From contig NZ_PXYJ01000002.1 of NCBI RefSeq assembly GCF_003012815.1, positions 434,001 through 498,000 of the forward strand: a stretch of DNA of 64,000 bases, in the 5' to 3' direction. This DNA is from Allosphingosinicella vermicomposti (GTDB lineage Bacteria; Pseudomonadota; Alphaproteobacteria; Sphingomonadales; Sphingomonadaceae). The notes beneath the pieces were generated by a model. It saw only the letters and a list, made by a program, of their open reading frames with translations. It ran no database searches and had not been told where the DNA came from. This document shows positions 11,809-37,188 of the stretch, one piece after another; the first letter of the stretch is position 1; each line of letters starts with the position of its first letter. A program made the translations under genes and the position numbers.

Positions 11809-12297
11809 ATGTTCTCTTTTTTTAAAGTTCGTCGCTTGGGCGCGGGGCGGAAGATTCCGTGTAAATCTCGACGAGATTCCGGCTTTCGCCGGAATGACGT
11901 TGATGGGAAGCGTAAGAGCGAGGACGGCTTTACCCTCGTCGAACTGATGGTGGTGATCGTCATTATCGGGCTGCTTGCCACCGTGGTCGTTATCAATGTG
12001 ATGCCCGCGCAGGATACGGCGCGGGTGAAGAAGGCCGAGGCGGATATTGCGCTGCTGGAGCAGGCGGCAGAGATGTATCGGCTGAGCCGCCTCAACTATC
12101 CGACCGGGGAACAGGGGTTGCAGGCGCTGGTCGCGGAAGGGTTCGTGAAGCGGCTGCCCGACGACCCGTGGGGCAATGCCTATCGCTACACGGCGCCGGG
12201 CCGGAACGGGGCGCCGTTCGACATCTATAGCCTGGGCGCCGACAATGCCGAAGGCGGTGAGGGAGACGATGCCGATATCGGCACCTGGGCGAACTGA
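11809..12297 (+). CDS. gspG: Major pseudopilin GspG with repeat-extended leader
   Basis: GspG forms the body of the type II pseudopilus. After cleavage by the prepilin peptidase at G40|F the mature protein starts FTLVELMVVIVIIGLLA with the key Glu at +5. The C-terminal part has LNYPTGEQGLQAL, DDPWGNAY and the Ca-binding-type tail seen in GspG. The leader is 40 residues instead of the usual 6-10. Its codons 16-31 read through a palindromic element of the ATTCCGGC family (residues DSGFRRND). The start abuts the gspF stop, and no ATG, GTG or TTG lies in frame between the element and the leader core. Confidence 0.94.
   Translation: MFSFFKVRRLGAGRKIPCKSRRDSGFRRNDVDGKRKSEDGFTLVELMVVIVIIGLLATVVVINVMPAQDTARVKKAEADIALLEQAAEMYRLSRLNYPTGEQGLQALVAEGFVKRLPDDPWGNAYRYTAPGRNGAPFDIYSLGADNAEGGEGDDADIGTWAN
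11860..11901 (+). repeat. Palindromic element inside the gspG leader codons
   Basis: The hairpin ATTCCGGCTTTCGCCGGAAT followed by GACG, the same motif found in intergenic copies near 29.9 kb and 37.1 kb. Here it is embedded in frame in gspG, between the start codon and the prepilin leader core, and is translated. Confidence 0.8.
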
Positions 12298-12724
12298 TCG
12301 CGGCGCGGAGGGCGGTTTTACGCTGATCGAGCTACTCGTCGTGCTCGTCATCATGGGCCTGCTTTCCGCCGCCGTGGTCGTCGCCTTGCCCGATAGCCGG
12401 GGGTCGGTGGTGAGCGAGGCGCAGCGCTTCGCCGCGCGCGCCAAGGCGGCGCAGGACAAGGCGATTATCGACGGGCGCGCGGTGATCGTGCGGATCGACG
12501 CGGAGGGCTATCGCTTCGAGCAGCGCGCGCGCGGCGAATGGCGGGCGATGGCCGAGCCTTACACACATTATGAATGGACGGTGGGCACGGCGCCGGATGG
12601 CCCTGCCTATCTTTTGCTCGATTCCACGGGGCTGACCGAGCCCGCGAGGCTGATCCTGCGCCGGGATGAAGATCAGGCGACGGTGGCCGTCGACGCCGGG
12701 GGTGCGATCCGTGTCGGGGCGTGA
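12269..12724 (+). CDS. gspH: Minor pseudopilin GspH
   Basis: A minor pseudopilin thought to join GspI-J-K at the pseudopilus tip. The 151-residue precursor starts at an ATG preceded by GAGGGA and overlapping the gspG end by 29 bp. The leader is 16 residues (cut after GAEGG), then FTLIELLVVLVIMGLLSAAVVV with Glu+5. The body ends in strands typical of GspH, such as AFARL-like ARAKAAQDKAII and LILRRDEDQATVAVD. Unlike its neighbours it carries no repeat insertion. Confidence 0.92.
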   Translation: MPISAPGRTDRGAEGGFTLIELLVVLVIMGLLSAAVVVALPDSRGSVVSEAQRFAARAKAAQDKAIIDGRAVIVRIDAEGYRFEQRARGEWRAMAEPYTHYEWTVGTAPDGPAYLLLDSTGLTEPARLILRRDEDQATVAVDAGGAIRVGA

Positions 12725-12725
12725 G

Positions 12726-13160
12726 ATGTACTCCTGCGAAAGTAGGAGCCTAGCCGCACAACCCGAACGACTGGGTTCCTGCTTTCGCAGGAACACAAGA
12801 GAGGCAGGCTTTACCCTCGTCGAAATGCTGGTCGCGCTGGCGATCTTCAGCCTTGCGGCGCTGGCGCTGCTGCGCCTCGAGGGCGCGACGGTGGCGACGA
12901 CCGCGCGGCTTGGGGATCAGACCATCGCGCAGATGGTGGCGCGCAATATCGCGGTCGAGACGATGACCGATCCGGTGCCGCCCGCCTTCGGGACAGAGAG
13001 TGGCGAAGTGGTGAACGGCAATCGCCGCTGGCTGTGGACGCGCGTGACCGGCCGTTCGCCCGAGGCGCGGATCCAGCAGATCGAGATCGAAGTGCGCAGC
13101 CCCACCGGGCCGGAAGCGGCGCGGATGACCATCTTCCGCGATGCGGATGTTCCGGCGTGA
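12726..13160 (+). CDS. gspI: Minor pseudopilin GspI with repeat-derived leader
   Basis: Minor pseudopilin; mature N-terminus FTLVEMLVALAIFSLAALALL with Glu+5, then a GspI-type body ending VRSPTGPEAARMTIFRD. The present reading frame uses ATG 12726, one base after the gspH stop, and yields a 28-residue leader. About 24 of those residues (including LGSCFRRNT) are encoded by a palindromic element. Removing roughly 74 bp would restore GTG-AGA-GAG-GCA-GGC, i.e. MREAG|F, with GTGA coupling to gspH. The functional frame therefore seems to have survived the insertion by a change of start codon. Confidence 0.9.
   Translation: MYSCESRSLAAQPERLGSCFRRNTREAGFTLVEMLVALAIFSLAALALLRLEGATVATTARLGDQTIAQMVARNIAVETMTDPVPPAFGTESGEVVNGNRRWLWTRVTGRSPEARIQQIEIEVRSPTGPEAARMTIFRDADVPA
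12727..12800 (+). repeat. Palindromic element inserted at the gspI start
   Basis: Contains CTCCTGCGAAAGTAGGAGCC on the left and GGTTCCTGCTTTCGCAGGAA on the right, each a small hairpin. It is flanked by AGA on both sides (12724-12726 and 12798-12800), a possible short target duplication. It lies wholly within the translated leader of gspI. Confidence 0.75.
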
Positions 13161-13825
13161 GGGGTGCCCAATCCCGGTGTTCCTGCAAAAGCAGGAACCC
13201 AACGGCGCAAAAGCCTGGGCTCCCGCTTTCGCAGGAGCACAACGCGCGGGAAGCGGGCTTCACAATCGTGGAGCTGCTTGTCGCCTTGCTTATCTTCGGG
13301 ATGCTGTCGGCGGCGGGGGTCGCGCTTTTGTCGTTCAGCGTGAATACGCAGGACCGGGCGGCGGAACGGATGGAGGAATTGAGCGGGCTTCGGCGTATGG
13401 GGGCGCTGCTGACCGGCGATTTAGCGCAGGTCGTGCCGCGTATTGCCCGCGATGAAGAGGGGCGCCCCCGTGCCGCCTTCGAAGGGGGCAATGGCAGCGG
13501 GCTTCTCTTCACCTTCGTGCGGGCGGGATGGGACAATCCCGGAGACGCGCCGCGCGGCACGCTTCAAAAAGTCGATTACCGCCTGTCCGGAACGACGCTT
13601 GAGCGCGTTGCCTATCCGCATGTTGACGGCGCCTTCCCGCTCGATCCGGTGGCGCTGGTGCAGAATGTGCGCGCGGTTCGTGTGCGTTTTCGTGACGCAA
13701 ATGGCGCGTGGCTCGACCGCTGGCTTGCCGAGCGCGCCACCGATCTGCCCCGCGCTGTGGAGCTGGAAGTGGATACGGAACGCGACGGCAGGCTGCGCCA
13801 ACTTTTCCTGGTGGGCGGCGCATGA
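13157..13825 (+). CDS. gspJ: Minor pseudopilin GspJ with repeat-derived leader
   Basis: Minor pseudopilin at the tip complex. The GTG start overlaps the gspI stop (GTGA). It gives a 34-residue leader, MRG... to NAREAG, cut before FTIVELLVALLIFGMLSAAGVALL (Glu+5). The body is of normal GspJ length and contains LVQNVRAVRVRFRDANGAW. Residues of about 4-30 come from a palindromic element of the same family as in gspI. Excision would leave GTG-AGG...GAA-GCG-GGC, i.e. MREAG|F, nearly identical to the reconstructed GspI leader. Total 222 residues. Confidence 0.92.
   Translation: MRGAQSRCSCKSRNPTAQKPGLPLSQEHNAREAGFTIVELLVALLIFGMLSAAGVALLSFSVNTQDRAAERMEELSGLRRMGALLTGDLAQVVPRIARDEEGRPRAAFEGGNGSGLLFTFVRAGWDNPGDAPRGTLQKVDYRLSGTTLERVAYPHVDGAFPLDPVALVQNVRAVRVRFRDANGAWLDRWLAERATDLPRAVELEVDTERDGRLRQLFLVGGA
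13163..13246 (+). repeat. Palindromic element inserted in the gspJ leader codons
   Basis: Left hairpin GTTCCTGCAAAAGCAGGAAC at 13179-13198 and right hairpin GCTCCCGCTTTCGCAGGAGC, the same two-hairpin structure as in gspI. The insertion keeps the frame of gspJ open. Element edges are estimated from the reconstructed ancestral leader. Confidence 0.75.
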
Positions 13826-14820
13826 AGCGGTTCGTTCCTCCCAAAGGTGAGCGCGGCGCGGCGTTGTTGACCGTCTTGCTGCTCGTCGCGGTGATGGGCG
13901 CGCTGGCGGCGGTGGCGCTGGAACGGATGCGGCTCGCGACGAGCATTGCGGTCAACACCGCCGCGCTCGATCAGGCGCGTGCCTATGCTTTTGGCGTCGA
14001 GCGGCTGATGCTGCTTGCCATGAACGACCTGCTCGCTGCGGAGTCCGAGCGGACGAGCCTGCAAAGCGGCTGGCAGGATCAGCAACGGCAAATCCCTTTG
14101 CCCGGAGGCGGCATAGCGCTGGCACGAGCCACGGACGGCGGCAATTGCTTCAATCTGAATAGTCTCGCCACGGCGCCTGAAGGTGCACCGGGCACGGTGT
14201 CGAACCCAACCGCCATCGTGCAATTTGCCGGGCTGATGCAGGTTCTTGAAGTGCCGCAGGGCCAAGCGGTGCGCATCGCGGAATCGGCGGCCGACTGGGT
14301 TGACGGCGACGGCGCGGCCAATCCGCAGGGCGGCGAGGACAGCGCCTATCGCGGTGGCGGCACACCCTATCTTCCCGCCAATGCACCCTTCGCCGATGCG
14401 AGCGAGATCCGCGCGGTGCAGGGCATGACGACGGACATCTACGCGCGCGTCCGCCCCTATCTGTGCGCCCTGCCCGACCACGAATTATCGCCGATCAACG
14501 TCAATACGCTGACGCCGGAGCAGGCGCCCCTCATCTCGATGCTCGAGCCGCGCATGATCCCGTTGGACGTCGCCCGCCGGGTGATTGCCGAGCGGCCTGC
14601 GGGCGGCTGGTCGAACCTCGCCGATTTCTGGACGGGCGGCGCGCTTGCGGGCATCACGCTCCCCATGGACGTACAGAGCCAGCCTCAGCTAAAGACCGGC
14701 TGGTTCAAGCTCAGCCTCGACGTGACGCTGGCGGGAGCGGAGCTGGCCGGAACGGCCCTGGTGGATGCACGCGAAGCGCCGGCGCGAGTGATCGCGCGGC
14801 AATGGGGGACTGACGAGTGA
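13822..14820 (+). CDS. gspK: Minor pseudopilin GspK
   Basis: The large minor pseudopilin that caps the pseudopilus. 332 residues; leader MKRFVPPKGERG, then AALLTVLLLVAVMGALAAVALE. As usual for GspK it lacks the Glu at +5. The body contains NCFNLNSL, DWVDGD with acidic Ca-binding-type residues, and the helix-hairpin-like ELSPINVNTLTPEQAPLI segment typical of the GspK alpha domain. ATGA overlap with gspJ and GTGA overlap with gspL. Confidence 0.95.
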   Translation: MKRFVPPKGERGAALLTVLLLVAVMGALAAVALERMRLATSIAVNTAALDQARAYAFGVERLMLLAMNDLLAAESERTSLQSGWQDQQRQIPLPGGGIALARATDGGNCFNLNSLATAPEGAPGTVSNPTAIVQFAGLMQVLEVPQGQAVRIAESAADWVDGDGAANPQGGEDSAYRGGGTPYLPANAPFADASEIRAVQGMTTDIYARVRPYLCALPDHELSPINVNTLTPEQAPLISMLEPRMIPLDVARRVIAERPAGGWSNLADFWTGGALAGITLPMDVQSQPQLKTGWFKLSLDVTLAGAELAGTALVDAREAPARVIARQWGTDE

Positions 14821-17183: not shown

Positions 17184-20100
17184 TTAGAAAGCGACGCCGA
17201 GCGAGACTTGGCCGCCGTCGCTATTCCACTGATTGGACAGCATCCCGCGATAGGAGACGCCGACGCGGACATTGCCCGCGCGGAGGGCGACGCCGACATC
17301 GAGGTCGAGCGCGTTCTTCGGCAGGCGTGCGCCGGTGATGCCGAAGCTGTCGCTATCCTCGAACGCGGCGGTCGAGCGACCCGCAAGGTCGCCCCAGCCA
17401 TGGCGCCAGGCGGCGGACATGCTCGGTTCGACGGTCATCGTTGCCGAGGCCGGAATCGAACCGGTTGCGCGGAGGCCGAGCGAGGCGAAGTTCACCTTGC
17501 GGACGTCCTCTTCCACCAAAAGCGCGGCGCTGTCGCCAGTTTCGGTGAAGCCGTCCGTCTTCATCCGCACATGTTCGACGCGGGCGAAAGGTTCGAACGT
17601 CATCGCGCCCATCGGCATTGCATAGCCGACTTCGCCGAAGAGCTGCGTCGTCTTTGCATCATAGGTGGACGAGGCGGTTTCGGAGAATCCCGGGAAGGCG
17701 ATGGTGCGGCTGGCTTCGATATCGTGCCAGGAATAGCTGCCGCCGATCCGGGCGGTGACCGGGCCCGCGCCGTAACCGGCGTGGAGGGCGGCCATCTTCG
17801 TGTCGACCTCCGCATTGCTGCTGCGGCTGCCGTAGCGATAATCGGACCGGGTGGCGCCGATTGCGGCACCGACGGTGAAGCCGCCTGCACCGAAATTGAC
17901 ACCGCCGATTACGCCTTGCTGATCGCCATCGACGCCCGCGACACCATTCGCGCTATCGAAGCTGCCCCAATCGCCAAGCGCACGCGCCCAAACGCCGGTG
18001 CCGCCCATGTCGCGGCCCGCGTCGAGCACGGCGTCGACCACCTGGTGGCCATCGACGATCAGGTTCGACCCGAGGCTCGCATAAGCTTCACCCGACAGAG
18101 CATCGAAAGCCTGGCGGGCGCTGGCTTCGGTCAGCAGGGAAATGTCTGCGTAAAGATCGTTGGTAATGCCGAGGCCTTCGATCGCGGCGGCGACATTTTC
18201 CTGGTTCGTTGTTTGCGCCACGTCTTCGAAATTGATGTTGTTGCGGCGCAGCTCCAAGCGCACTTCATTGGCGCTGTAGGTAAGCGTCGGGGTGAGGAAG
18301 GCGGAGTCCGATCGTACCTCATCGAATTCGCCGTCCACGCCGCCATCGGCGCGGATGATCAGATATTCGGTGAAGGGACGGAAGGTGCCCGCTTCGGCGA
18401 TGACCGAAACGATCCCGCCGTCGATGAGCGCCTGGCCGGTTGCCAGAATCTGGTCGCTCCGGCCATCGGCGTTGACTTCGACTTCGAAGATCGAGCCGAC
18501 CGCGAAGCTGATGTCCCCTGCGACATTGAGCGTGCCGATCGAGTTGCCGGGAGCGAGCGTGCCGTTGCCGGTGATAACCGCGCCGCCGATCGTGCCGCTG
18601 CCCATCAGGGTGCCGCCTTCGTTCACGCGGACTGTCGAAACGATCGAGCCGTTCACCGCGATCGCGCCTTCGTTCACCACCGTCGGGCCGGTATAGGTGC
18701 TGTTGCCGGTGAGGTTGAGGCGGCCGCTGCCCGACTTGATGAGCGCACCGTCGCCGGCGATGTCGCCGCCGAACGCCGTGTTCACGCTCTGGTTGACGGT
18801 GAGTTCGCTGTCGTCGACCACGATGGATCCGCCCGTGCCGGACAGTTCGGCGATGGTCTGCGGCGTGCCGGAAATGTCGAAGGTGCCGCCGTCTTTCAGA
18901 ACGACTTCGGTTTCGGGATCGATCGCGCCGGTGAACCTCACCGTGCCCCCTTCGATCAAGGTCGTGCCGGTATAGCTATAATCGCCCATGAAGGTGAGCG
19001 TGCCGTCGCCCCGCTTCACGAACGAGCCGGTGCCGGAGAAATCGCCGAGGAAGTCGTAGTCGCCGGCCTGGGCGAAGATGAAGCGGCCATTGTTGACGAG
19101 GTCGCCTTCGAAGCTGCCGCCTTCGCCGAGCACGAAGGTGCCGTCGCCGGTCGTCGTGAGATCGCCGGTGAGGCGCGCGTCGCCCATCAGGGTCAGCGAT
19201 CCGTTGGCGATGGTGGTGAGGCCGGTGAAGGTGAGCGAATTCTGGTCGGCGACGAAATTCGCCTCACCCGCCAGTGTCACCCCGCCGGTGCCGGAAATGG
19301 CGAGATAGTCGATATCGGCCAGATCGTCGCTGTTGAAATTGAGGATGAGGAGCCCGTTGTTGACGACATTTTCGGTGACGATCGCGCTCGTCGCGCCGCC
19401 GCCGACCGAGACTTCGCGGACATCGAGCGTCGCGCCTTGCGCGATGGTGACTTTTTCGAAAAGGCTGGCCGCGCCTGCGGTGTTGGCGAGCCAGTAGCCC
19501 GACGAGACGAGCAGTTCCTCGAAGCCGAAGACGGCCGATACGGCCTGCTGGGCCGTAAGAGCGCCGTTTGCCCCGGCGAGCGCAAGGATATCCATCCCCT
19601 CCCCGCCCGAAATCGCACCCGTGATCGACGAGCCGGTCTGGAGAACCATCACATCGTCAAGCGCGCTCAAGGTGACACCGCCGGTTATCGTACCGCTGTT
19701 GGTCAGCTCGATCGCGCCCTGCGAAACGAAATCGCCGTTGATTGTCCCGCTGTTCTGGGCGGTCGCTTCGGCAAGGTTGATGAGGACACCGCCGTTGATC
19801 GTGCCGCTGTTCAGCAGGGAACCGGTCTTTCCGGCAAAGTTCTGGTTGGAAAGGACCACGCCAGTGGTGCCGCCCGTGATCGTCCCGGCATTTTCGATCG
19901 TGCCCCCGCCAGCAAGCAGGATGCCGTAGCGAACGCCTGAGATCGTGCCGTCCGACTGATTGACGATGCCGCCGATCTGTTCCTCGCCGTTATCCTGGCC
20001 AGGGTAATATTGGAGCTGAATGCCGTCCGACGCCGACCCGGCCAAGGCCTGGATCGTACCGCTATTGACCACCGACCCTTTCCCGAAGATCAGGATCGCG

Positions 20101-23033
20101 TCGTTATTTTCACCGGCAATCGTACCACGGTTGACGATATCGGTGTTGATAACGTTCCAGCTGGTGGTCTGCGTCGCGCTATCGTAGCTTGAGGTCGTCA
20201 CGATCCCGTATTCCGCACCGGAAATAGTGCCGCGATTTTCGATCGCATTCTCACCATATTCGATGATCACGCCGCCGCGCGCCTGCCCGGCGGGGGTTAG
20301 GCGTCCGTCGCCGCGGATTGTGCCGTCGTTGACAATTTGGGTCGAGCCAAAGCGCAGCGCGATGCCTGATCCCGCGCCGACGATCCGGCCATTAGCGGCA
20401 TTTTCGATTGTCATATCGGCAGCCGAAGCCTGGTCGATACCATAACCGGCGGTTCCTTCGATGAAGCCGCTATTGGCCACCGTCGCGCTGTCCAGATTAC
20501 CCCAGATGCGGACGCTATCGCCGCCGCGCATCGTGCCCGTGTTAGTGACAGTGGCAGTCTTGCCGGTCTGCGTCGCCGTCTGCGTCTGGATAAGCGCTGC
20601 CGCGACGCCACCCGTGATCGTGCCAGCATTCGTTACTTCCGCGCCGCCCGAAATGATGACCCCTAGGCGCGAGCCGGATATCGTTGCACCGGCATTGTTT
20701 GACACGGTGCCGACAATCGCCGCGCCCGACGTGTCCTGCCCGTTGAGCTCGAACATCGAAATGCCGTCGGTCAGTTCGCCCGCAACACCGGCGATCGTGC
20801 CGTTATTGGTCACCGAGCCGCCGCCGATCAGGCGGATCGCGTCATTCGCATCACCACGGATGGTCCCATTGTTGGTGATTTCCGTGCCGGTCGCGAGCGG
20901 CTCCAGCGCATTGGTTTCAGGATTCAAATAATAGGCCGTCGAGATGCCGAAGCCCGCGCCGGAAATGGTCCCGTTATTGACAATCCGGTTGTCGCCCATG
21001 GCAAGCGTCACACCGGCCGACGGCGGCGCGTCGAGGCTATCCAGCGTTCCGTTACCCCGGATCGCTCCATCGTTAGTAAGGTGCAGCGTTCCGCCTCCGG
21101 CGAAAATGCCAATCTGGCCACCGGTGACAGTGCTGTCTGCCTGAACCGCGACGGTCGCGATGCCAGCCTCGCGAATACTGATGCCGTAAAGATCGCGGGA
21201 GGTGATATCGCCGGTAGCGGTAACCGTCGCGGCACCGCCCGAGAGAACGATGATTCCTTCACGTCCGACATTGATATCGTCCGCGAGAACGTCCACGCCC
21301 GCCTGGCCGCGCGCAAGAATTCCGTAAGCTTCGTTGCTGGTCGCGGTGATCGTTCCGCTGCGAACGATAGCCTTGCCCTTCTGGCTGACCGCATCGATGC
21401 CGCCGCCGCCATTGCCGGTCATTTCGATCGCGCCGCTATCGACCGTTACCGTGCCGCCTTCGCCAACGGCGGTCGCGGAGATGTTACCGGAAAAATCGGC
21501 GCTTGAAATAACGCGCTCGCTCGTCACTGACACGGTCGCGCCGCGCGCGGCGATGCCCGATGCATAGTCGCCTGCAACCGACGCGGTGCCGCTGATGATG
21601 GTGACATTGCCCGTTTGGGAGATGCCGGAAACGGCGTCGGCATAGAAACCGTAAAGAACAGGGACCGAGGTCGTCGTCGTATTCGCAGCGGTGATGTTGA
21701 TGTCGCCGCTGGAGGTTTCGACGTAAATACCTGCATCGCCCTGCTCGCCGATCAGAACAGTGCCGCTGCCGACAGTGACGTCGCCCGCGCCGCCATAAAC
21801 GACAATGCCGGGGCCCGCGTTCGTGGTGACACTTCCGGAGGTGATATCAACCGTGTCGTTTGCCCAGATATAGATACCCGAGCCGGTGCTTTCGACCGCT
21901 TCACTTTCAACGCTGATCGGCCCACGGTGATCAATGATAATGCCGCGCCCATTGGGCCCGCTGGCCTTGATCGATCCGCTAACGATGGAAAGAGCGCCGG
22001 TTCCGGCGGTTTCCGAAACCGGGCGATATTCATAGGTCGGGTTGGGATTGGCAGCCACGACGATGCCGTGGGAATTGGTGCCGGACGTGGTGATCGCATC
22101 GCTGGTGATCGTAACCGGGCCTGCCCCGAAGACCGGCGCGAAAATCGCCGTGCTGTTATTACCAGTGGTCGTGACAGTACCGCTGTCCAGGATGATCGAA
22201 GCCGGTTCGGCTTGATAACCTTCAACATAGATGCCGAACGACTCCTCGCCAGATGTGGAAACCGTGCCGCTCTCAATGTCGGCATTTCCGGTCACGACAA
22301 CGTAGAGGCCGCGACCATATTCGCCATCGGTCGTCACTGATTCGCTGACAACCCGCGCGTCGCCGTCAGAATAGACATTGAGGCCCCATTGGCCGTAACC
22401 ATGGGCGACGGTTTCGCCCACATCGACGTCGGCACCACCCTTGCCCGCGCTTACATATACGGTGCTCGCATAAGTGGGGATCGCCGATCCGGATACGTAA
22501 TCGGCATCGAGTGTCACCGCATAACCTTGCGCGACGATGCCGTTGCCAGCCGCAGCCGTAACGGAGCCTGCGCGAATGGTCGTGCTTCCGGTTGTGAAAC
22601 CTTGTTCCGGATTAGCGAACAATGTGCGGGTAAAAATGCCGCGCTGACCGGCATTCACCGTATCGACGTCGATCACGATGTCGCCGCCATTTGTACGGAC
22701 TTCGATAGCGCTTGCGTCTGTCGTGATCGAGCCAAGGTCTACGGAAGCGTTACCGGTTTCGGTCTGGGCGTAGACGGTCGACCCAGTGGTGGCGCTGTCC
22801 TGGACAGTTGGAGCAGTGATCGAGACGTTACCACCAGTCGATTGGCCGCGGATGCTGGTAGCGCTGGGGGTTACGATTTCGACATCGCCAGCAGAGGTCT
22901 GGTCGATGACCTGAGCCGCTGCCGGTGCCGCGAAAATCGAGCAGCTGAGGGCAGTTCCGGCGAGGAGGGTTCGCAGGCGGCGGCTGTTCGCGCCAACGTT
23001 GTTGCTGCCCGAAAGCTGATTCAGTTTCGTCAT
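17184..23033 (-). CDS. Large type V (autotransporter) outer-membrane protein
   Basis: A 1949-residue self-secreted surface protein. Signal peptide about 1-41 (RTLLAGTALSCSIFAAPAAAQ). A very long Gly/Ser/Thr/Asn-rich passenger of repeated beta-helix rungs (runs such as NNGTI, NSGTI) extends to about residue 1530. An autotransporter stalk with GNGTLAPGNSIGTLNVAGDI follows. The beta-barrel occupies about the last 270 residues, starting near GGTGVWARALGDWGSFDS and ending in VSLGVAF with the required C-terminal Phe. No protease motif is obvious in the passenger. The gene stands alone on this strand and is divergent from a LuxR-type regulator. Confidence 0.93.
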   Translation of the reverse strand: MTKLNQLSGSNNVGANSRRLRTLLAGTALSCSIFAAPAAAQVIDQTSAGDVEIVTPSATSIRGQSTGGNVSITAPTVQDSATTGSTVYAQTETGNASVDLGSITTDASAIEVRTNGGDIVIDVDTVNAGQRGIFTRTLFANPEQGFTTGSTTIRAGSVTAAAGNGIVAQGYAVTLDADYVSGSAIPTYASTVYVSAGKGGADVDVGETVAHGYGQWGLNVYSDGDARVVSESVTTDGEYGRGLYVVVTGNADIESGTVSTSGEESFGIYVEGYQAEPASIILDSGTVTTTGNNSTAIFAPVFGAGPVTITSDAITTSGTNSHGIVVAANPNPTYEYRPVSETAGTGALSIVSGSIKASGPNGRGIIIDHRGPISVESEAVESTGSGIYIWANDTVDITSGSVTTNAGPGIVVYGGAGDVTVGSGTVLIGEQGDAGIYVETSSGDINITAANTTTTSVPVLYGFYADAVSGISQTGNVTIISGTASVAGDYASGIAARGATVSVTSERVISSADFSGNISATAVGEGGTVTVDSGAIEMTGNGGGGIDAVSQKGKAIVRSGTITATSNEAYGILARGQAGVDVLADDINVGREGIIVLSGGAATVTATGDITSRDLYGISIREAGIATVAVQADSTVTGGQIGIFAGGGTLHLTNDGAIRGNGTLDSLDAPPSAGVTLAMGDNRIVNNGTISGAGFGISTAYYLNPETNALEPLATGTEITNNGTIRGDANDAIRLIGGGSVTNNGTIAGVAGELTDGISMFELNGQDTSGAAIVGTVSNNAGATISGSRLGVIISGGAEVTNAGTITGGVAAALIQTQTATQTGKTATVTNTGTMRGGDSVRIWGNLDSATVANSGFIEGTAGYGIDQASAADMTIENAANGRIVGAGSGIALRFGSTQIVNDGTIRGDGRLTPAGQARGGVIIEYGENAIENRGTISGAEYGIVTTSSYDSATQTTSWNVINTDIVNRGTIAGENNDAILIFGKGSVVNSGTIQALAGSASDGIQLQYYPGQDNGEEQIGGIVNQSDGTISGVRYGILLAGGGTIENAGTITGGTTGVVLSNQNFAGKTGSLLNSGTINGGVLINLAEATAQNSGTINGDFVSQGAIELTNSGTITGGVTLSALDDVMVLQTGSSITGAISGGEGMDILALAGANGALTAQQAVSAVFGFEELLVSSGYWLANTAGAASLFEKVTIAQGATLDVREVSVGGGATSAIVTENVVNNGLLILNFNSDDLADIDYLAISGTGGVTLAGEANFVADQNSLTFTGLTTIANGSLTLMGDARLTGDLTTTGDGTFVLGEGGSFEGDLVNNGRFIFAQAGDYDFLGDFSGTGSFVKRGDGTLTFMGDYSYTGTTLIEGGTVRFTGAIDPETEVVLKDGGTFDISGTPQTIAELSGTGGSIVVDDSELTVNQSVNTAFGGDIAGDGALIKSGSGRLNLTGNSTYTGPTVVNEGAIAVNGSIVSTVRVNEGGTLMGSGTIGGAVITGNGTLAPGNSIGTLNVAGDISFAVGSIFEVEVNADGRSDQILATGQALIDGGIVSVIAEAGTFRPFTEYLIIRADGGVDGEFDEVRSDSAFLTPTLTYSANEVRLELRRNNINFEDVAQTTNQENVAAAIEGLGITNDLYADISLLTEASARQAFDALSGEAYASLGSNLIVDGHQVVDAVLDAGRDMGGTGVWARALGDWGSFDSANGVAGVDGDQQGVIGGVNFGAGGFTVGAAIGATRSDYRYGSRSSNAEVDTKMAALHAGYGAGPVTARIGGSYSWHDIEASRTIAFPGFSETASSTYDAKTTQLFGEVGYAMPMGAMTFEPFARVEHVRMKTDGFTETGDSAALLVEEDVRKVNFASLGLRATGSIPASATMTVEPSMSAAWRHGWGDLAGRSTAAFEDSDSFGITGARLPKNALDLDVGVALRAGNVRVGVSYRGMLSNQWNSDGGQVSLGVAF

Positions 23034-37089: not shown

Positions 37090-37105
37090 GCTCCTCCTTT
37101 TCCAC

Positions 37106-37188
37106 GTCACCCCGGCGAAAGCCGGGGTCTCATGACGAAAAGGGCGCTTAATTCCCGACTAGATTCCGGCTTTCGCCGGAATGACGCA
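37106..37188. repeat. Intergenic palindromic element (ATTCCGGC family)
   Basis: CACCCCGGCGAAAGCCGGGG-TCTC on the left and AGATTCCGGCTTTCGCCGGA-ATGACG on the right. The right half is nearly identical to the block embedded in gspG. Confidence 0.85.

Follow-up and report, generated by a model that had tools for sequence, protein, structure and literature searches.

It is likely that three neighbouring pseudopilin genes, gspG, gspI and gspJ, received dispersed REP dimers at their 5' ends by insertion, and that these were kept because they lie within the class III (prepilin) leader. The window, i.e. the whole 64,000-nt stretch of DNA analysed here, is part of a 2.51-Mb genome (G000; G000:C2:434001-498000) and contains a type II secretion operon, whose genes gspE, F, G, H, I, J and K were identified with family models. 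A sequence-only reading of the window had described two-hairpin palindromic elements in the gspI and gspJ leaders, and both were recovered, shortly 5' of REAG/FTLVE and REAG/FTIVE, respectively (slash, prepilin cleavage site; Table 1). The third leader element, in gspG, had been overlooked. Overall, the earlier observation was confirmed in part and its interpretation supported in part.

Table 1. Pseudopilin genes, cleavage contexts and palindromic leader elements of the operon, in window positions.
Feature	Position	Strand	Evidence
gspG, major pseudopilin	11809..12297	+	TIGR01710 1.5e-40, PF08334, PF07963
CGTC-type REP hairpin, gspG leader (right half of dimer)	11872..11899	+	hairpin pattern
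gspH, minor pseudopilin (start codon inferred)	12266..12724	+	TIGR01708 2.1e-24
gspI, minor pseudopilin	12711..13160	+	TIGR01707 1.2e-22
REP-like dimer, gspI leader, 69 nt	12728..12796	+	hairpins 12728-12751 and 12773-12796
Prepilin cleavage context REAG/F of gspI	12798..12812	+	PF07963 5.8e-9
gspJ, minor pseudopilin (34-residue leader)	13157..13825	+	TIGR01711 5.2e-34
REP-like dimer, gspJ leader, 64 nt	13177..13240	+	hairpins 13177-13200 and 13217-13240
Prepilin cleavage context REAG/F of gspJ	13247..13261	+	PF07963 9e-7
gspK, minor pseudopilin	13822..14820	+	NF037980 1.2e-73

Folded on their own, the gspI and gspJ elements were far more stable than shuffled sequences (z -9.3 and -7.5, respectively), as they were with their flanks (z -5.2 and -4.6, with 0/200 shuffles as good). 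The gspG element with flanks folded only moderately better than shuffled sequences (z -2.2, 7/200 shuffles as good); the left half of its dimer (approximately 11830-11857) has decayed in G000 and is better preserved in the relative G008. The gspI and gspJ dimers, which had been described as lying at identical positions, are only similarly placed, with 17 and 20 nt, respectively, from the first base of the start codon to the first hairpin and 13 and 18 nt from the last hairpin to the Phe codon. REP-like hairpins occur at four places in the window, namely these three leaders and a pair at about 37105-37186; the window scan revealed no palindromic element in the gspH or gspK leader of G000, and Rfam models at gathering threshold found only two tRNAs in the window. 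Three elements in four adjacent leaders compare with 0.08 expected (P for at least three approximately 9e-5), an estimate that assumes a 180-nt target and 250 kb of non-coding DNA for a region picked because elements had already been seen there. Elsewhere in the window, the minus strand carries at 17184-23033 an ORF of 1949 aa that is repetitive, Gly/Thr/Asn-rich and autotransporter-like by eye.

The features of class III leaders are present (Gly/Phe at the cut, Glu at +5 and a hydrophobic stretch), PF07963 matches gspG, gspH, gspI and gspJ, and two PF01478 genes of G000 are candidate prepilin peptidases. The gspG leader comprises 40 residues and ends in KSEDG before FTLVE, with an in-frame TAG immediately 5' of the ATG at 11809. 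Between start and Phe codon, in-frame ATG, GTG or TTG codons are found at 11809 and 11836 in gspG, at 12711 and 12726 in gspI and at 13157 alone in gspJ, all of them ahead of the last hairpin. A downstream internal start, which the sequence-only reading had named as grounds for abandoning its view, was searched for between element and Phe codon of gspG, gspI and gspJ, and no in-frame ATG, GTG or TTG was found there, so that the elements should be translated in all three genes. The reading frame thus runs from an ordinary start codon through each element to the cleavage motif, and the proposal that the extra residues lie wholly 5' of the prepilin cut holds for these dispersed palindromic repeats, which are read in frame before Gly/Phe. 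The GTG at 12721 with which gspI had been said to begin is out of frame with that gene. Its start is probably the GTG at 12711, giving a 33-residue leader and aligning with a start of the form GTG/ATG-TC in five relatives (G008, G020, G018, G010 and G006), with the ATG at 12726 (28-residue leader) as a possible alternative. The GTGA coupling to the preceding gene claimed for both genes applies to gspJ, where GTG 13157 overlaps the gspI stop, and not to gspI.

A pattern taken from the sequence-only reading, CTCCTGCG-N4-CGCAGGAG, gave 0 matches in the genome, the true loop and arms being different, and degenerate hairpin patterns were used in its place. Two hairpin patterns yielded 89 and 62 matches in G000 that merged into 114 places, 78 of them with a single hairpin; in 34 of the 36 places with more than one, the arrangement was exactly one minus-plus (head-to-head) pair. 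The elements thus belong to multicopy families. One kind of head-to-head pair, to which the gspI and gspJ copies belong, is present 22 times, always in minus-plus order (22/22). Its consensus is approximately GTG(C/T)TCCTGC-GAAA-GCAGGA(G/A)CCCAG, then a variable middle followed by the mirrored sequence, and single hairpins of this kind occupy 16 further places. The gspG hairpin pattern gave 66 matches in G000 with up to one mismatch. Candidate coding ORFs span 34 of the 114 places, and reading these left five judged to be truly within genes, in gspG, gspI, gspJ, an MtaB-like gene and rsmB, all of which were checked with family models. The copy in the minus-strand MtaB-like tRNA methylthiotransferase gene is an in-frame REP dimer (L022:1439-1522; G000:C1:816599-816682), and that in rsmB, also on the minus strand, is an in-frame REP-like dimer between the NusB and methyltransferase domains (L215:1501-1570; G000:C3:253371-253440). 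A further candidate at C1:194621 was rejected, as it sits between a fur-like and an acyltransferase-like ORF on the other strand (names from reading the ORFs). A search for the Y1 (RAYT) transposase gave no PF01797 match in G000, with 5 of 14 control genomes positive and such a gene present in 11 of 26 genomes of the genus. The second pilin-type cluster of G000 (L226) has short leaders, and no such hairpin was seen in its three leaders.

The closest relative by GspG identity, G008 (90%), shares the gspG and gspJ elements with G000. Another genome of the genus, G018, corresponds to a named record, an uncultured Sphingosinicella MAG (L084 and L055 agree throughout the 300 nt compared). Element-free leaders, proposed earlier as a check, were found in gspI of G008 and in gspJ of G020, G018, G010 and G006 (starts inferred). 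The distance from start to Phe codon in gspI is 99 nt in G000 (from GTG 12711) vs 27 nt in G008, an in-frame excess of 72 nt, and the absence of the element from G008 gspI implies that, after their split, either G000 gained it or G008 lost it. The element-free gspJ leaders are of 5-10 residues (MTRPQEAG in G020, MRSAG in G018, MIRASSGEGG in G010 and MNSASSREQG in G006, the first residue being set by the inferred start). The near-identical ancestral leaders MREAG postulated for the two genes were not borne out, the relatives showing MSxxx in gspI and varied short leaders in gspJ; in G010 gspI, one decayed REP arm is possibly present, as judged by eye. CGTC-type matches numbered 89 in G008, 35 in G006, 33 in G046, 8 in G020 and 17 in G018, so that the clean leaders of G020 and G018 are weaker evidence, these genomes having fewer REPs. 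For the GTG type, G008 gave 76 matches, and the genomes of loci L145 and L127 gave 36 and only 5, respectively, two of the five lying in leaders.

The gspJ element is kept in both G000 and G008 at a dS of approximately 1.1, and its arms differ at paired places (TTCCTGC..GCAGGAA in G008 vs CTCCGGC..GCCGGAG in G000). Such paired changes would fit selection for the hairpin as well as replacement of the element by a different copy from the genome; persistence with compensatory changes exceeds what pure tolerance predicts, although REP replacement would look alike. The mature pseudopilin domains are under purifying selection, with dN/dS values for G, H, I and J of 0.095, 0.345, 0.221 and 0.222, respectively, against G008 and 0.113, 0.465, 0.261 and 0.417 against G020.

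The analysis was extended to 107 distinct T2SS loci (369 G/H/I/J leaders), consisting of 110 loci minus three duplicates; the 110 were the best 30 places from one set (57 of 98 genomes matched, G000 included) and the best 80 of 446. Leader sites were located by a pilin regular expression with at least 80 following residues, by which other prepilins were perhaps counted and odd ones missed, and the leader was taken as the 120 nt before the cleavage site. In blind counts, hairpins with arms of at least 8 were 3.6 times denser in leaders (50; 1.10 per kb) than elsewhere (142; 0.31 per kb), and those with arms of at least 10 were 12 times denser, on small numbers (7, 0.15 per kb, vs 6, 0.01 per kb). 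Hairpins were borne by 41/369 G/H/I/J leaders vs 3/78 E/F junctions and 2/58 gspK leaders. A non-blind count of signature words, which were picked after viewing leaders, gave 74/369, 0/78 and 0/58, respectively, a few of the matches looking like chance (e.g. L152 and L161 gspH) at control rates of 36/8999 windows for REP-A words and 0 to 5 for the other words. From the E/F junction and gspK controls, the idea that any gene junction collects repeats was judged unlikely.

Four repeat-like peptide kinds, besides the 33-bp unit described below, were seen in 23, 10, 5 and 4 of the 369 leaders, dispersal across genomes having been tested for the hairpin kinds of G000 only. REPs are read in different frames depending on the species (FRRND, GESR and PAFAG, by eye), which argues that no particular peptide is what is kept. 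The notion that leader charge decides the frame was dropped on finding that the less charged PAFAG frames are likewise read in Sphingobium leaders. In Sphingobium quisquiliarum P25 (L127), the leaders of gspH and gspJ share a stretch of 66 nt without a difference and are 93% identical over 120 nt. Within genomes, 6 of 462 leader pairs reached 75% over 66 nt, compared with 0.1% of random between-genome pairs, which points to leader-to-leader copying between paralogous pseudopilin genes. The likeness of the L127 gspH and gspJ leaders extends further upstream and includes a REP-like stretch. Sphingobium sp. AP50 has two contigs (L145 and L147) with the same gspG-H-I-J leaders, all four of which contain repeat-like stretches of at least three kinds (by eye).

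A second, different palindromic unit of 33 bp occurs in the leaders of many sphingomonads. It codes for the 11 residues GFTxxxRSAEH and contains the cleavage site (RSAEHG/F). With the slightly loosened motif.SA[EQ][HNQK]G[FL], 70 units were counted in 42 leaders of 23 of the 107 loci, the unit-to-unit spacing being 11 codons in 27 of 28 cases. Its 21-nt core, GTTCCGCC-S-AA-M-A-S-GGCTTCA, was present in 13 of 15 chosen genomes when one mismatch was allowed, and exact copies occurred in 25 of 397 genomes of the family (90 matches); the search with up to one mismatch found none in G000 or G008. Among the 73 of these 90 matches listed, those of each genome lie on one contig within about 2 kb, and the one genome with the core (up to one mismatch) on two contigs has T2SS genes on both (L145 and L147). 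All 97 core hits in the 34 loci fetched, a count that includes overlapping loci (G101 and G343 share coordinates and are probably one genome), encode RSA[EQ][HNQK]GF with a variable first residue, in frame before the pilin motif. Seven units stand in tandem from the contig edge in G212, for which 10 of the 27 core copies were among the matches listed. Examples of the unit can be seen at loci L228-L261 (e.g. L251:1-300, L246 and L250) and in the leaders of L127, L133 and L143.

The unit is conserved as DNA, with a codon use unlike that in the mature parts of the genes (Arg CGT 0.90 vs 0.09, Ser TCC 0.95 vs 0.14 and Glu GAA 0.94 vs 0.35). The would-be pairing bases of the 70 units were G-C in 43, C-G in 18, G-U in 4 and unpaired in 5, a pattern that could equally come from two inherited versions of the unit, and typed copies formed a 4+4 bp hairpin (z -2.4 and -3.6). 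On these data, we hold at about even weight that the G/H/I/J leaders of sphingomonads are a dedicated niche for palindromic DNA, which would comprise REPs and a tandem 33-bp unit with its own cleavage site, leader-only among the matches listed, kept as DNA (the paired exchange of SAEHG and SAQQG) and passed between paralogues. If so, the unit, as a repeat residing in the leader, would multiply the cleavage motifs of the prepilin and yet stay out of the mature protein. Its presence at prepilin cleavage sites raises the questions of what retains it and how it moves between genes.

It could be argued that the hairpins are selected as RNA, slowing translation at the gspI and gspJ starts and so setting the ratio of minor to major pseudopilins. 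The predicted structures are very stable and lie just after start codons, the gspJ hairpins are retained in G008 with paired changes, and the concentration of hairpins seen in G/H/I/J leaders is lacking at E/F junctions. However, the gspI dimer is absent from G008 and the gspJ dimer from G020, G018, G010 and G006, the major pseudopilin gene gspG also has an element, with a left half decayed in G000, and in other species the same place is held by other repeat kinds; such regulation is considered unlikely. More doubtful still is an advantage of longer leaders as such, for instance through positive charge or a hold on membrane or chaperone, with repeats as the available material. The close relatives with gspJ leaders of no more than ten residues, and a reading frame and composition that vary between species (by eye), speak against it, although the lengthening does recur in many species by way of different repeats.

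Least probable of all, and very improbable given the start codons listed above, are untranslated spacers with the true starts downstream of the elements. A start past the element would shorten the leader to only about five to ten residues and would require a rare start codon, for which the CTG at 12771 within the gspI element might be put forward; according to the available text of PMC3733652, REPs in NH2-terminal coding regions may for the most part be extragenic. More generally, the starts and leader lengths of sphingomonad pseudopilins may often be misjudged.

The preferred reading, insertion of dispersed REP dimers tolerated within the leader, would proceed as follows. REP dimers would insert widely in the genome and those in leaders would survive, as the extra 20-25 residues would lengthen only the cytoplasmic n-region, the prepilin peptidase would cut after Gly as usual and the insert would be absent from the pseudopilus; some repeats would then be copied from pseudopilin leader to leader by recombination. 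An n-region, Gly at -1 and the helix that follows are all that a prepilin leader requires. With the secretion genes tightly packed and overlapping, the leader would be almost the sole low-harm site for a 70-bp insertion, and its tolerance would let repeats of several kinds accumulate there across related bacteria. That prepilin peptidase removes the element is predicted from the candidate PF01478 enzymes and the intact motif, and we infer that the elements are neutral. Counting against this reading are the persistence of the gspJ element described above, the near absence of repeats from the gspK leaders of related operons, the hairpin-free short leaders of the second pilin-type cluster and the lack of a PF01797 match in G000. 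Three elements that are expected to be translated, in adjacent genes and in a part that is probably cut off, would represent a clean case of selfish DNA surviving in coding sequence.

REPINs are moved by RAYT transposases. The gspI and gspJ dimers are like them in that two inverted REPs form one unit of 64-70 nt, and G000 differs from the REPIN/RAYT system in having no PF01797 gene. Rickettsia palindromic elements lie mostly inside the final protein. The G000 elements resemble these in being in frame inside functional genes (function being judged from purifying selection), and the leader elements differ from them in that they lie in a part expected to be cut off.

CGTC REPs, as presented in the available text of Di Nocera, De Gregorio and Rocco 2013 (PMC3733652) with S. 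wittichii and S. chlorophenolicum among the hosts, have an unpaired CGTC (or TGTC/CCTC) end, an 8-9 bp stem beginning with AT, a loop of 4-5 bases and a short tail that is CCA in most but not all cases, and are predominantly arranged as head-to-head dimers. The gspG element shares the CGTC end (on the reverse strand of 11872-11899), the stem (ATTCCGGC, 8 bp, AT first, loop of 4, at 11876-11895), membership of a head-to-head dimer, an alphaproteobacterial host and the lack of a dedicated transposase, and differs in its tail, CTC and not CCA, a feature that is not absolute. The same text assigns RPE-6 of R. conorii to the CGTC-1 REPs and RPE-4 likewise to CGTC REPs, so that for gspG the resemblance to Rickettsia elements suggested earlier goes beyond likeness (CGTC tag, stem and loop of the class of RPE-6). 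The gspI and gspJ elements resemble CGTC REPs in their head-to-head arrangement and in the CCCAG that follows the first hairpin in most copies; in contrast, the 22 copies mostly begin with GTG(C/T)TCC and have neither the CGTC end nor the AT-first stem, and on these sequence features they are best classed only as REP-like head-to-head dimers.

REPs within genes are known, and the available text of PMC3733652 already lists such copies, RNA-modification genes included, ascribing in-gene palindromic repeats to linkers or termini that tolerate them, or to starts that were misannotated. The leader elements of G000, which should be translated, are set apart from the N-terminal REPs suspected there of being extragenic, and the words 'pilin' and 'leader' are absent from the main text of that paper. 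No report of repeats in pseudopilin or prepilin leaders, nor of the 33-bp unit, was found in the open-access literature, within which the recurrent prepilin-leader context is new. The nearest analogue of the latter is PARCEL (palindromic amphipathic repeat coding elements, PMC2996958), which in the available text of that paper is likewise palindromic, tandem and coding in frame; PARCEL has a unit of 25 residues and occurs in many ORFs of varied organisms, whereas the 33-bp unit codes for 11 residues and is seen only before prepilin cleavage sites.
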